NCBI RefSeq assembly: GCF_900142825.1
Contig: NZ_FRCH01000002.1
Location: forward strand, 310,001-374,000
Origin: Rhodanobacter sp. OK091
Lineage (GTDB): Bacteria > Pseudomonadota > Gammaproteobacteria > Xanthomonadales > Rhodanobacteraceae
DNA length: 64,000 nt
Direction of reading: 5' to 3'
The stretch's first letter is position 1. Every line of letters begins with the position of its first letter. Shown here piece after piece: positions 3,257-35,011 of this stretch. A program made the translations under genes and the position numbers. The notes beneath the pieces were generated by a model. It saw only the letters and a program-made list of their open reading frames with translations, was not told the origin of the DNA and made no database searches.

Positions 3257-4696
3257 TCAATCGCCATCGTTTGCGCGTTGCCCGCGCAGACGCCAGGCAC
3301 GGATGCCGAGATTGAGTGCGAACCAGCCGCACATCACCCCCAGCGGCCAACCCACCCAGGCCGGCCACAGGATCGCGACGACCGCCAGCGTGAGCAGCGC
3401 CAGCGTGCCGACGAGCAGCGGGCCGCTGGAGCTGTCGCCCAGCACGCGACGATTGGTCAATGCGGCGCCGACACTGTTGGCGATGCGCAAGGCACCGGCG
3501 GCGGCGCGGCCGGAACTGCCGCCGCCGTGCGGTATCCGCGGTCGGGTTTCGCTGCTGCGTACGCGCTCGCTGCTGCCACGGCGGCGAGGCGCCGCCAGCA
3601 CGATTTCAGTGGCGTTGCCCAGATCGCGTTCGTACTGCGCGGCGAGCTGGTCGGCGAAGTCGGCGTCTTCGACCGCCACATCGAGCTCGCGATTGCTCAA
3701 CCAGCTGGCGATGTTGAGGTTGGACGAACCGACCCGTGCCCATTGCCCGTCAGCGACGGCGGTCTTGGCGTGCAGCATCGAGCCATTCCACTCGAACACC
3801 CGGATGCCAGCTTTCAGCAACGGCCGGTAGCCCGAACGCGACATGCTGGCCACCGCGGGGATGTCGCTGCTGCCGGGCACCAGCAGGCGCACGTCCACGC
3901 CATCGCGCGCGGCCGCTACCAGTGCCTGCACGTAGGGCGTGAGGCCCACGAAATAAGCGTCGGTCAGCCACAACGTCTTGCGCGCCATCGACGCGATCAA
4001 CTGATCGAGCCGGTACATGCCGGCCGTAGCCGGCTGGGTGGCAATCAATCGCAGGGAGATATCGCCGACGGCCGCGGCGGGTTCCGGCAGGGGCACAAAC
4101 TGCCGCAGCGCGGCACCGGTTTCACGCCAGCTTTGCGCGAATGTCGCCTCCAGCTCCGCCACGACGGGACCGCGCAGCGCCACACCGGTGTCGCGCCACG
4201 GCGGCACATTGCGCGCCGGATCACCCAGCCATTTCGCACTGATGCATACGCCTGACAGGAAGCCGTGCACGCCGTCGACCACCAAAAGCTTGCGATGATC
4301 GCGGCTGATCCAGCCGAACGGTTGCCCCAGCTGCGGCGGATTGAACACGCGCACCTCGCCGCCGGCCGCGCGCAATGGCGCCCAGAAGGAATGGCGCGAC
4401 TGGCCCAGACAACCGACCCAATCCACCACTACAGCGACAAACACGCCGTTTCGCGCACGCTCGACCAGGGCATCGCGGAACGCAACGCCGACCTCGTCGT
4501 TGCGGATGATGTAGTTCTCCAGCAGCACTCGCTGTCGTGCACCCCGGATCGCCGCCAGCCAGGCGTCGTAGTGCGCGGAGGCGTCGATCAGCAGTTCCAC
4601 CGCATTACCGTTGAGCAAGGGCGCGCCGGCGGTGCGGCTCAGCGCCTGTTCCGCCAGCAGGCGGATCGGCGTGGCATGGATCGGTGGCATGGGCAT
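3257..4696 (-). CDS. Phospholipase D / cardiolipin synthase-like protein with C-terminal membrane segments
   Basis: A 479-residue protein with two PLD half-sites: 'HRKLLVVDG' at about residue 130 and 'HAKTAVADGQWARVGSSN' at about 310. These are the HKD motifs that form the phosphohistidine active site. Such proteins make cardiolipin from phosphatidylglycerol or transfer phosphatidyl groups; ClsB is the closest well-known relative. After the catalytic part comes an Arg/Ser/Gly-rich linker (~360-400) and then two hydrophobic segments (~415-460), so the anchor is C-terminal rather than N-terminal as in ClsA. Exact substrate is not shown by the sequence. Confidence 0.85.
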   Translation of the reverse strand: MPMPPIHATPIRLLAEQALSRTAGAPLLNGNAVELLIDASAHYDAWLAAIRGARQRVLLENYIIRNDEVGVAFRDALVERARNGVFVAVVVDWVGCLGQSRHSFWAPLRAAGGEVRVFNPPQLGQPFGWISRDHRKLLVVDGVHGFLSGVCISAKWLGDPARNVPPWRDTGVALRGPVVAELEATFAQSWRETGAALRQFVPLPEPAAAVGDISLRLIATQPATAGMYRLDQLIASMARKTLWLTDAYFVGLTPYVQALVAAARDGVDVRLLVPGSSDIPAVASMSRSGYRPLLKAGIRVFEWNGSMLHAKTAVADGQWARVGSSNLNIASWLSNRELDVAVEDADFADQLAAQYERDLGNATEIVLAAPRRRGSSERVRSSETRPRIPHGGGSSGRAAAGALRIANSVGAALTNRRVLGDSSSGPLLVGTLALLTLAVVAILWPAWVGWPLGVMCGWFALNLGIRAWRLRGQRANDGD

Positions 4697-4750
4697 GCGT
4701 CGAGTTTAGGCGATGACCCGTATCGGCGTTGTCGTTGGCAAGCTTCTGGC

Positions 4751-6709
4751 ATGATCCAGTGCATGCAGATCGAGCACCGCTACACCGATACCGATGCATG
4801 CGCGCGCTACCTCGCCGACGAACTGGGGGCGGATCTGCGCATTGCCGCGCCGCTGGGCCTGGGCAAGCCGCATGGACTGCTCAACGCGCTGTACCGGAAC
4901 ACCGCGGCCGATCCGATCCGGTCCATGCGTCTGTACACCGCGCTGTCGCTGACCCGGCCGCAGCCGGCGCCGGGACTGGAGCAAAGATTTCTCGGGCCGT
5001 TCCTGGAGCGCCACTTCGGTGCCGATCAGGTCGATCCGCAGTACGCGCTGGATCAGGCGCGCGGAGCGTTGCCCTCGAACGTCGAAGTGCATGAGTTCTA
5101 CCTGCAGTCCGGCGCGCTGCTGCATTCGGGCTGTGCGCAGCGCAGCTATATCAGCCAGAACTACACCCACGTCGCCCGCGATCTGGTGGTGCAGGACATC
5201 AACCTGCTGGTGCAACTGGTGGCGCGTCGCGAGGGGCCGGACGGGGCGCGCTACAGCTTGTCGTGCAATCCGGACCTGACTCTGGATTTCATGCGCCAGG
5301 TACAGGACGCCGGCAAGCCGCGGCCGCTGTGCGTGGCGGTGGTGCATCCGGACCTGCCGTATCTGAGCGGCGAAGCCGAAGTGGCCGAAGACTATTTCGA
5401 CGTGGAGCTGCGCCCGGAAACTTCGCCGCTACTGTTCGCATTGCCGCGGCAGCCGGTCGACCTGGCCGAGTACGCGCTGGGCTTGCATGCCAGTGCGCTG
5501 GTCAGGGATGGCGGCTGCCTGCAGATCGGCATCGGCGCGTTGTCCGACGCGCTGGTCAAGGCGCTGCTGCTGCGCCAGCAGGACAACACCGTATGGCGAC
5601 GCGCGCTGGTGGCGCTGGACCGGCGCGGCGCCACGCATGCGCTGGCCGGATGGCTGGGCGGCCTGGCTGCGTTCCAGGCCGGCTTGTATGGCGCCAGCGA
5701 GATGGTGATGGACGGCTTCATGCACTTGCAGCGCGCCGGCATCCTGAAGCGGCGCAGCTGGGACAATCTCGCGCTGGAGCGTGCTTCGGCCGCCGGTCGG
5801 CTGGCCGCCGACGTGCCGGGCGGACATTATCTGCGTGGCGCGTTCTTTCTCGGTTCGCGCGAACTGTACGCATGGCTCGACGCCACCGAAGCGGTCGATC
5901 CGGATGCGATCGACATGGGTCCGGTCTCCAACGTCAACCATCTGTACGGCGATCACCAGGTGCTGGCGACGCTGCAGCGGCGCGGCGCGCGCTTCTTCAA
6001 CACATGCATGATGGCGACCCTGCTCGGCGCCGCGGTGTCCGACACGCTGGACGATGGCGGCGTGGTCAGCGGTGTCGGCGGCCAGTACAACTTCGTGGCT
6101 ATGGCGCACGAACTGCCGGAAGGCCGCTCGGTGCTGCTGCTGCGCGCGACGCGGCAGGTGCGTGGCGGGATCGAAAGCAACATTCGCTGGAATTACGGCC
6201 AGACCACCATCCCGCGCCACCTGCGCGACATCTACGTGACGGAATACGGCGTGGCCGACCTGCGCGGCAAGAGCGACAGCGAGTGTGTCGAGGCGATGCT
6301 GTCGATCAGCGACGCGCGTTTTCTCGATGCGCTGTGCGCGGAGGCGAAGGCACACCGCAAGCTGGCCGCGGACTTCGTGATACTGGAAGCCTGGCGTCGG
6401 CATTCTCCGCGCTACCTGCACGAGGCGCTGGCGCCGTTCCAGCAGAAAGGCTTGCTGCCGCAGTTTCCGTTCGGCAGCGACTTCACCGAAGTCGAGCAGC
6501 GCCTGCTGCCGGCGCTGAACTGGTTGAAAGCCTGCAGCAGCCACTGGCGCGGCCGATGGCGGTTGCTGCGTGCCGTCTGTCGACATGGTGCGGTGGCCGC
6601 TGATGAGGCCGAGGCGCTGGCGCGGATGGGGCTGGCTCATCCGGTCAAGCTGGCCGATCGTCTGCAGCGCCGCTTGTTGCAGGCAGCGCTGCGCCGCAAG
6701 CAAATGTAG
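4751..6709 (+). CDS. Acetyl-CoA hydrolase/transferase family protein
   Basis: A 652-residue protein of the acetyl-CoA hydrolase/CoA-transferase superfamily. The C-terminal domain is clear, with 'NYGQTTIPRHLRDIYVTEYG' and 'VADLRGKSD' (residues ~475-510). A glycine-rich segment, 'SGVGGQYNFVAMAHEL', precedes it. The protein is longer than the ~430-residue hydrolases; a 640-residue form with an N-terminal extension and a C-terminal helical tail is also known in proteobacteria. I chose the ATG at 4751; another at 4763 is possible, and the open frame upstream is antisense to the PLD gene. The TAG stop at 6707-6709 lies inside the first bases of the palindromic element that follows. Confidence 0.8.
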   Translation: MIQCMQIEHRYTDTDACARYLADELGADLRIAAPLGLGKPHGLLNALYRNTAADPIRSMRLYTALSLTRPQPAPGLEQRFLGPFLERHFGADQVDPQYALDQARGALPSNVEVHEFYLQSGALLHSGCAQRSYISQNYTHVARDLVVQDINLLVQLVARREGPDGARYSLSCNPDLTLDFMRQVQDAGKPRPLCVAVVHPDLPYLSGEAEVAEDYFDVELRPETSPLLFALPRQPVDLAEYALGLHASALVRDGGCLQIGIGALSDALVKALLLRQQDNTVWRRALVALDRRGATHALAGWLGGLAAFQAGLYGASEMVMDGFMHLQRAGILKRRSWDNLALERASAAGRLAADVPGGHYLRGAFFLGSRELYAWLDATEAVDPDAIDMGPVSNVNHLYGDHQVLATLQRRGARFFNTCMMATLLGAAVSDTLDDGGVVSGVGGQYNFVAMAHELPEGRSVLLLRATRQVRGGIESNIRWNYGQTTIPRHLRDIYVTEYGVADLRGKSDSECVEAMLSISDARFLDALCAEAKAHRKLAADFVILEAWRRHSPRYLHEALAPFQQKGLLPQFPFGSDFTEVEQRLLPALNWLKACSSHWRGRWRLLRAVCRHGAVAADEAEALARMGLAHPVKLADRLQRRLLQAALRRKQM

Positions 6710-7412
6710 GGGGCCGCTTGTGGGCGATGCTCTTGGCTCTTGGGTTGATTGATTTGAAGCGAAGAGCTTTCGTGCGCCTCTGGCGCCCGAGTCACTTTTC
6801 TCTTGTGTGGCCAAGAGAAAAGTAACCAAAAGAGAAGGCCACCCCGCTTGGCGCTTGCCGCCCATCCGTGGGCGGCAAGTCCGTGAGCCGGGGTCGGGCT
6901 TTTCGACAGGGCATCCTGCCCTGGCGAAAAGGCATCGGCATCCTTGCCGATGCCCCTGCGGGCCTGTCGACCCCGTCTCACCGCCGCACAGGGGCCCCGG
7001 GTAGAGCAGCGGGCCATCGTGGCCCGCACTCGGTGAAAAGCCGAAGCAAAGCGTCGCTCTGCTGTTGCTCTGGCTCTTCTGAAAAGTGCGGGCCACGATG
7101 GCCCGCTGCTCTACCCGGGGCCCCTCTGAAGCGGCGGGTGGGTGGAGGAAAAGCCCGAAGGGTGGTCGGCAGGGATGCCGACCAGTTTGGCGTCAGCACA
7201 GGATGTGCTGTCGACAAACCCCGTAACCCACCCGCGGACTTGCCGGGCAGGAGGCCCGGCAAGCGCGTAAGCGGGGTGTCGTTTTCTCTTGGTTACTTCT
7301 CTTTTGGACAAGCAAAAGAGAAGTAACTCGCCCTCCGCAGGAGGGTGAAAGCTCTCTGCTTCAAATCAATCAACCCAAGAGCCAAGAGCATCGCCCGCAA
7401 GCGGGCTCCTAC
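6706..7412. repeat. 707-bp modular multi-hairpin palindrome
   Basis: The whole interval between the acetyl-CoA hydrolase gene and ccoS is an imperfect inverted repeat. The outer arms (6706-~6765 and ~7350-7412) match almost base for base (GTAGG..GCCCGCTTG..GGGCGATGC, then CTCTTGGCTCTTGGG). The inner arms (6988-7030 and 7086-7128) match again around a ~55-bp unpaired centre. Between these, each arm holds a series of small hairpins at equivalent positions: 6854-6879, 6907-6923 and 6931-6954 on the left; 7163-7184, 7194-7210 and 7239-7263 on the right. Stem sequences differ between arms but loops around ATCC/GGAT are kept. Short ORFs inside it are by-products of the palindrome. It may also act as a transcription barrier between the convergent genes on either side. 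Confidence 0.9.
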
Positions 7413-7424
7413 GTACGCGACGAC

Positions 7425-7628
7425 CTACACGATGTCCTGCGTGGGTGGGGCGGTTTCTTCGGGGGGCTTCGGGGCGGACTCTTCCGCCGGTGGATCATCC
7501 ATCAGCGGCAGGATCGCGGGGCTGTCCAGGTCGTCGAACTGCTGGTGGTTGACGGCCCAGAAGAACAGCGCCACCGCGACCAGCAACAGCAGCACAGTGA
7601 CTGGAATCAGCATCAGCAGAATGTTCAT
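7425..7628 (-). CDS. ccoS: cbb3-type cytochrome oxidase assembly protein CcoS
   Basis: A 67-residue single-span membrane protein. The N terminus 'MNILLMLIPVTVLLLLVAVA' followed by 'FFWAVNHQQFDDLDSP' is the standard CcoS signature, a transmembrane helix then the conserved 'QFDDL' tail. CcoS is needed to insert haem b and CuB into CcoN during cbb3 oxidase maturation. The proline/glutamate-rich C-terminal tail is variable in the family. Its start overlaps the ccoI stop by 4 bp, and it is the last gene of the ccoN operon. Confidence 0.95.
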   Translation of the reverse strand: MNILLMLIPVTVLLLLVAVALFFWAVNHQQFDDLDSPAILPLMDDPPAEESAPKPPEETAPPTQDIV

Positions 7629-17806: not shown

Positions 17807-17898
17807 GTAGGAGTCCGCTCGCGGGCGATGCTTTTGCTTTGATGTCTGATTGGGTAGGGAGATCAGAGCAAAAGCATCGCCCGCGAGCGGGCTCCTAC
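17807..17898. repeat. 92-bp palindromic repeat
   Basis: Arms 17807-17843 and 17862-17898 are inverted copies with about two mismatches in 37 bases, around an ~18-bp loop. The outer 25 bases of each arm match the outer end of the large palindrome at 6706-7412 (GTAGGAGCCCGCT.GCGGGCGATGC). It lies just 3' of trxB and 5' of the next minus-strand gene, so it could form the trxB transcript end or stabilise it. Confidence 0.9.
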
Positions 17899-34921: not shown

Positions 34922-35011
34922 TGGCGGAGGGAGTGGGATTCGAACCCACGGTACGCGTTAACGTACGACAGTTTTCAAGACTGTTGCCTTAAACCGCTCG
35001 GCCATCCCTCC
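34922..35011 (-). tRNA. tRNA-Ser (anticodon UGA)
   Basis: A 90-base class II tRNA gene read on the minus strand. The acceptor stem GGAGGGA pairs with TCCCTCC, a discriminator G and an encoded CCA follow, the T-loop GTTCGAATC is intact, and a long variable arm (CGTACGTTAACGCGTACCG region) marks tRNA-Ser. The anticodon loop reads CTTGAAA, giving UGA, which decodes UCA and UCG/UCU by wobble. No integrase gene or second copy of its 3' end is seen nearby. Confidence 0.96.

Follow-up and report, generated by a model that had tools for sequence, protein, structure and literature searches.

A REP-flanked, multi-copy palindrome of Rhodanobacter with conserved A(N)GGA hairpin loops: a candidate family of CsrA-binding RNAs in the Xanthomonadales

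The genome of Rhodanobacter sp. OK091 contains an inverted repeat of 707 bp (0.7 kb) at 6706-7412 of a 64,000-nt stretch of contig NZ_FRCH01000002.1 (positions 310,001 to 374,000, forward strand; hereafter the window, to which all coordinates refer unless a locus is named). Its outer arms (6706-6849/7269-7412; 144 nt) are 82% complementary and its inner arms (6981-7030/7085-7134; 50 nt) 94%, in agreement with a first-pass annotation of the window that had described a two-arm inverted repeat with outer and inner blocks. Both ends are formed by repetitive extragenic palindromes (REPs), i.e., a GTAG-tagged REP on the left (6706-6730, plus strand) and an inverted REP on the right (7388-7412, minus strand), which were assigned based on the sequence, on the REP-like ends of aligned copies, and on a plain REP doublet forming a hairpin (REPIN) at the same site in relatives. 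The stop codon TAG (6707-6709) of the upstream open reading frame (ORF; 4265-6709) lies inside the left terminal REP; this gene thus ends in the first bases of the element, as had been proposed. An ordinary REPIN of 92 bp (two inverted REPs with a short loop) is present outside the element at 17807-17898, and its previously noted resemblance to the element's ends is explained by the terminal REP that both have in common. Between the terminal REPs, a core of about 613 bp (6754-7366) is common to other species of the genus; its limits were taken from the same-genus matches, the long ones of which lie mostly within about 55 to 666 of the 721-nt query.

The unit of this element is an arm of about 280 nt and not the palindrome, a point that the first-pass annotation missed. 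Arm A (6754-7030, minus strand) and arm B (7085-7365, plus strand) each have the structured sense strand directed outward from a centre (7031-7084), the length of which varies among copies, and the two are diverged versions of one design. Reading outward, this design begins with a hairpin H1 and a closing stem P1 with hairpins H2 and H3 inside it; H4, H5 (rich in pyrimidines) and the small H6 follow. In arm A (all on the minus strand), H1 occupies 7009-7027 with the loop ACGAT (GGA or CGA in other copies), the 5' strand of P1 (6968-6981) pairs with its 3' strand (6883-6896), and H2 (6931-6954, loop AAGGAT), H3 (6907-6923, loop AGGAT) and H4 (6854-6879, loop ACGGAT, not conserved outside the genus) are followed by H5 (6791-6826), which has a loop without GGA and outward-strand wobble pairs in its outer part. 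In arm B (all on the plus strand), the corresponding features are H1 (7088-7106, loop ACGAT), P1 (7134-7143 paired with 7226-7235), H2 (7163-7184, loop AGGGAT), H3 (7194-7210, CACAGGATGTG, loop AGGAT), H4 (7239-7263, loop AGGAG), H5 (7292-7327, loop without GGA) and H6 (7331-7345, loop GCA). All hairpins that the first-pass annotation had named are among these. We examined 57 Rhodanobacter copies (17 from this genome and 40 from relatives), in which H6 of arm B forms a strict hairpin in 18 cases and A-type arms occur on both sides in at least one copy (L092). The pyrimidine tract of H5 recurs just upstream of H5 on the outward strand (7270-7327 and 6791-6845), and either copy of the tract could pair with the same purine strand, giving a possible alternative fold. 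By eye, the centre is flipped relative to the arms in copies L014, L016 and L017, as if recombination between the inner inverted repeats had inverted it. Besides, open frames of 94-152 amino acids cross the element on both strands (6868-7326, 6978-7262, 6637-7029) and might enter annotations as spurious hypothetical proteins.

A search of the whole genome (4.42 Mb, 11 contigs) recovered 83 matching pieces, and the 17 longest places, 6706-7412 included, are near full-length copies with 84-100% identity. With a covariance model of the arm (R1), 39 arms were found in this genome, forming 18 outward-facing pairs plus three single arms. The 17 near full-length places and the 39 arms show that the palindrome is not a chance structure. 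REP-like sequences flank both sides in all 17 aligned copies (by eye), although some are degenerate; they are of two types, occasionally with one type per side, and some copies have GTGG ends.

The gene upstream of the element was matched in 39 of the 45 genomes of the genus, i.e., in 38 besides its own. The core was present at none of the 29 orthologous loci examined in sister species, of which three (L302, L318 and L319) cover only about 260-320 bases beyond the gene, so that a complete element would show only partly; cco genes adjoin the locus in 17 of the 29. Inspection of 16 sites showed a plain REPIN at this very stop codon in L294 and in L306 and one farther along in L313, and the other sites contain REP remnants or other sequence. 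As the core sits inside a REPIN-like frame and is absent at the sister loci, it either arrived here recently or was lost in the others, and the comparison of these sites, which the first-pass annotation had called for, supports mobility or turnover of the element. One Y1_Tnp match, of the type of REP-associated transposases, lies in the genome in an open frame of 239 codons (L028, 1501-1827). The GTAGGAGC/GTGGGAGC motif was not found in the 3.3 kb around this gene, though REPs are many in the genome. The core matched nothing in plasmid and phage collections, which thus point to no vehicle of either kind.

The pairing of the arm was evaluated in three alignments, namely 64 Rhodanobacter arms not fitted to the model (A1), 48 arms at 30 loci in the family's other genera (A2), and 22 arms of other families of the order (A5). 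The alignment of A2 and A5 was guided by the model, so their covariation counts lean towards the structure. In A1, 97.6% of the cells in 33 tested pairs were paired vs. 76.7% after shuffling, both sides had changed in 25 of the 33 pairs, and the 410 double-changed cells compare with 118 in shuffled alignments and at most 70 in slid controls. Double-changed cells amounted to 402 in A2 (107 shuffled) and 177 in A5 (49 shuffled), and P1 covaried in all seven tested pairs in both alignments. The RNA fold of arm B alone lies 7.8 standard deviations below the mean of 200 shuffles, which again speaks against a chance structure, and the fold predicted for a single outward arm B coincides with the covarying structure, with its loops open. 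The covariation strongly supports selection on structure, which the first-pass annotation had proposed from stem changes that keep pairing; the pattern is best seen for the same hairpin across copies and genera and not only by comparing one arm with the other.

Paired stem changes might also arise without any RNA function, if the element were a DNA mosaic of the REP or bacterial interspersed mosaic element (BIME) type in which quasi-palindrome template switching and gene conversion among copies keep the stems matched. The strictly Watson-Crick stems, the recurrence of stem alleles across copies, the invertible centre and the REP ends all suit such a mosaic. On the other hand, P1 covaries although its strands are about 90 nt apart with two other hairpins between them, which is not expected from local template switching, and the design is present through an order. 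The explanation is already strained by the loops, as those of H2 and H3 stay A(N)GGA while H4 of the same arm drifts, and we consider it improbable.

In A2 (46 rows, after the two weakest of the 48 had been dropped), loops of the form A(N)GGA were found in 46/46 H2, 44/46 H3 and 20/45 H4 hairpins, and in the pooled alignments A2, A3 and A5 in 134/138, 130/138 and 65/136, respectively. In the pooled set they sit on 53 distinct H2 stems and 32 distinct H3 stems. The drift of the H4 loops outside Rhodanobacter provides an internal control for the constancy of H2 and H3, and in one genome with 24 arms (G115) all H2 and all H3 loops, but none of the H4 loops, follow the rule. The model was trained on GGA loops, yet it recovers H4 loops without GGA, and the A2 rows used score 63.6-139 bits, which we estimate to be more than the loop columns could decide. 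When only strict perfect hairpins were counted, the sense-strand loop contained GGA in 135 of 155 from the A2 and A5 arms, but in 14 of 212 from the flanking DNA of these loci, at a distance of over 800 nt; outside the repeats of the window, the corresponding counts were 0/85 on one strand and 3/85 on the other. Among the 57 Rhodanobacter copies, H2 is strict in 52 A arms, all with GGA, and in 49 B arms, 47 of them with GGA.

CsrA/RsmA recognizes its targets by A(N)GGA placed in a hairpin loop, and the invariant GGAT/ATCC loop of the element, not recognized as such in the first-pass annotation, is this CsrA-type motif on the outward strand. In PMC7652899, the CsrB repeat is given as CAGGA(U/A/C)G, single-stranded or in a hairpin loop, and systematic evolution of ligands by exponential enrichment (SELEX) yielded the consensus RUACARGGAUGU for CsrA, mostly in 6-nt loops. 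In the arms, any base may stand between A and GGA, or none, a pattern that agrees with CsrA but not with base pairing to an AGGA sequence. The csrA gene is present in this genome and in 36 of 36 genomes of other genera carrying arms. Based on the loop rule and the presence of csrA, we propose that the arms are CsrA-binding RNAs and that the element may represent a multi-copy, REP-borne family of such RNAs, a reading to which we assign a probability of about 0.5. The element was previously suspected to be a mobile hairpin element or a large structured RNA, and both possibilities have gained support, with its RNA nature being what we still infer.

Several observations weigh against this proposal. 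About half of the Rhodanobacter copies have an H1 loop that reads ACGA or ACGAT, GGA is missing from a few H2 and H3 loops (the strict arm-A H3 loop is CGA in 6 of 52), and a further 11 of the 52 strict arm-A H3 hairpins were read in an equally long register with the loop AGT and GGA paired. The drifted H4 loops are by our own count often c(GNA)g triloops (9/23 in A2, 13/18 in A5). The H2-H4 stems are nearly strictly Watson-Crick (9 G-U, 7 A-C and 1496 Watson-Crick cells in A1), which is unusual for RNA alone, and in H5 the inner pairs, which the wobble count given below does not include, have about 19 G-U cells to 18 A-C cells among the pair types listed and so no asymmetry. In a fold predicted for the whole element, the two arms pair with each other. 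A consensus scan of 6600-7520 detected no sigma-70-like promoter, a GacA box not having been searched, and two terminator-like sites vs. 1.5 expected. The arm stems have 6-11 pairs and are very stable, whereas the SELEX results, as presented in PMC7652899, suggested that very stable stems disfavour CsrA. The orientation of the neighbouring genes, treated further below, is also unfavourable.

Part of these observations would be expected if the hairpins acted as single-stranded DNA on the outward strand, during replication or transposition; a DNA-binding protein, or a trans-acting Y1/REP-associated tyrosine transposase (RAYT) that spreads the copies, would then read the GGA loops. GNA triloops stabilise DNA hairpins, so the c(GNA)g loops of H4 favour this alternative, as do the near absence of wobble pairs in H2-H4, the palindromic, multi-copy and REP-flanked form of the element, its absence at the 29 sister loci, and the single Y1_Tnp gene. 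However, the A(N)GGA loop rule belongs to an RNA-binding protein that is present in every genome checked, the known recognition by RAYTs relies on GTAG and the REP hairpin and not on internal GGA loops, and we know of no candidate reader of GGA loops in DNA. A DNA-borne function is in our view unlikely.

The wobble pairs bear on the strand. On the outward strand, G-U exceeds A-C in P1 by 6:3, 12:0, 8:2 and 14:0 in four partly overlapping sets, and in the outer H5 pairs together with H6 by 35:1 and 41:1. The RNAalifold energies are also lower outward (arm A, -141.8 vs. -104.2; arm B, -112.6 vs. -95.3). These results favour the outward strand as the more likely structured one. In DNA, G-T is likewise tolerated better than A-C, so that the asymmetry, being compatible with single-stranded DNA as well, tells the strand and not the molecule.

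Gene context, obtained from heuristic ORF calls by codon-position GC, points in another direction. Where a neighbouring gene could be called for a single arm in the family, the one past the 3' end converges on the arm in 33 of 38 cases, and the upstream one, past the 5' end, runs in the same direction in 15 of 30 (39 arms, nine without a called upstream gene; five more at contig ends were dropped). Because the 3' end of a single arm faces the 3' end of a convergent gene, read-through would produce the opposite strand, on which the loops read UCC. The functional molecule could accordingly be a gene-sense transcript whose UCC-loop hairpins pair with AGGA (Shine-Dalgarno-like) sequences, in the manner of the loops of sX13, which are C-rich, or of the Bacillaceae-1 RNA, which read RUCCU; a sub-threshold Bacillaceae-1 match on the UCC strand of arm B agrees with this. 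Against it stand the wobble asymmetry in P1, outer H5 and H6 (though not in inner H5), and the variable insertion, which becomes UCC(N)U on that strand and breaks contiguous pairing to AGGA. Moreover, the convergent 3' neighbour is less frequent in other families of the order (8/12), and the bias is absent in other orders (3/6, two of the six from one genome). We regard a function of the UCC strand as improbable; the orientation bias of the single arms may reflect either insertion polarity or neighbours that transcribe the opposite strand. The 17 paired copies of this genome have six convergent, nine tandem and two divergent neighbour pairs, with no clear preference for convergent genes. We also considered the arm as a 3' untranslated region (3'-UTR) of the upstream gene and rejected this as a general rule, because that gene is co-directional in only the 15 of 30 called cases.

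The distribution of the arm extends far beyond the genus, which the first-pass annotation also missed. R1 matched 44 of 45 same-genus genomes, 186 of 233 genomes and 23 of 26 genera of the family, and, at an E-value of 1e-5 or better with strict filters, 157 of 398 genomes and 33 of 98 genera in the order-wide search. Up to 71 arm matches per genome were counted in 36 chosen genomes. Of the family's 35 multi-arm loci, 31 have a simple outward pair, and in named records the exact arm motif occurs mainly in Dyella and Rhodanobacter species (at least 80 loci). Arms face inward and not outward in some genera of the order (L323, L331, L347 and others). In G115 (L159-L178), many arms are followed by further repeated hairpins, CTGGATCCC...GGGATGACG and CCCCTCACCCCAACCCTCTCCCC, in similar order towards the next gene. 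In a sample of the class, 8 of 369 genomes matched, comprising that of the window, one more of the order and six weak cases. The latter, from six genomes of other orders, are arm-like matches of about 48-64 bits (about 38-64 bits over the loci L324-L329, L332 and L333) with paired A(N)GGA hairpins; they may be distant homologues or the result of convergence and were left out of the loop tallies.

Searches of Rfam at gathering thresholds assigned no family to the element, the sole match in the window being a tRNA at 34925-35011, and likewise gave nothing in the 17 loci searched among the 30 of other genera or in 18 loci from the order's other families. None of the CsrB, RsmX, RsmY and RsmZ models matched at its gathering score or, on 6600-7500, up to an E-value of 5. 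A relaxed search of 6600-7500 returned 14 matches, all under the gathering scores; the two best, mir-3180 (47.3 bits vs. 99) and VA RNA (32.2 vs. 62), cover the inner palindrome and were dismissed as apparent artefacts of a long hairpin.

We hypothesize that the palindrome is a carrier of two outward-reading structured arms, the inverted pairing of which would give any transcript that enters the element, whichever side it comes from, a sense arm at its end. In the arm RNA, the paired A(N)GGA loops would dock dimeric CsrA (RsmA), and each transcribed copy would titrate CsrA, as CsrB, CsrC or RsmZ do; alternatively, an arm might place its carrier RNA under CsrA control. The dose and the places of this activity would then depend on copy number and on mobility of the REP/RAYT type. 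In a broader and more tentative form, to which we lean less than to CsrA binding as such, the arms would constitute an undescribed CsrA/RsmA-binding RNA family throughout the Xanthomonadales, spreading as mobile, often palindromic, REP-associated repeats in up to tens of copies per genome, with a CsrA-buffering capacity determined by copy number and insertion sites and not by one or two dedicated small RNA (sRNA) genes.

CsrA/RsmA is a global regulator, and PMC7694677 places RsmU, a sequestering RNA of Xanthomonas, outside the known antagonist families. If our proposal is right, genome-wide repeats with paired A(N)GGA hairpins are direct candidates for the missing antagonists, and interspersed repeats become linked to post-transcriptional control. 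If the molecule is single-stranded DNA instead, the loops would represent a new kind of conserved hairpin code in single-stranded DNA.

The arm resembles the CsrB/CsrC and RsmX/Y/Z/W sponges in its multiple hairpins with A(N)GGA motifs in the loops, as in the CsrB repeats. It differs from them in its two nearly invariant sites (in Rhodanobacter, three or four), in the long covarying stems that a closing stem encloses, and in numbering up to 71 matches per genome in a palindromic and, here, REP-borne arrangement. RsmU of Xanthomonas campestris is, in the available part of PMC7694677, a 3'-UTR-derived RsmA-binding sRNA, and it is alike by description in that it has GGA motifs (four predicted), binds RsmA and sits at the 3' end of a gene; replacing all four motifs did not abolish binding. 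Unlike the element, RsmU is described there from one locus, with a 77-nt form and a longer isoform, and not as a repeat.

The Bacillaceae-1 RNA (RF01690) also has paired hairpins with short conserved loops, but its match to the element (7166-7229, minus strand; 26.7 bits vs. a cut-off of 35, E-value 0.014) remains below threshold and lies on the opposite strand, and the family was described, in PMC2864571, from Bacillaceae. With the loop sequence that we take it to have, its reverse complement would read AGGA(Y), and the strand or function of that family may deserve a second look.

REP, REPIN and BIME elements are GTAG-tagged palindromes, according to PMC3733652. The element shares with them the terminal inverted REPs with GTAG-type 5' ends, and with REPINs the insertion site right at the stop codon. 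It has a conserved structured core of about 613 bp where a REPIN, such as that of L294 at the same site, has only a short loop. REPINs and BIMEs are about 100 bp in size, compared with 707 bp here. No description of the element was found in the open-access literature searched. REP ends and CsrA sponges are each known; as far as these literature and Rfam searches reach, their union in one order-wide repeat family is new.

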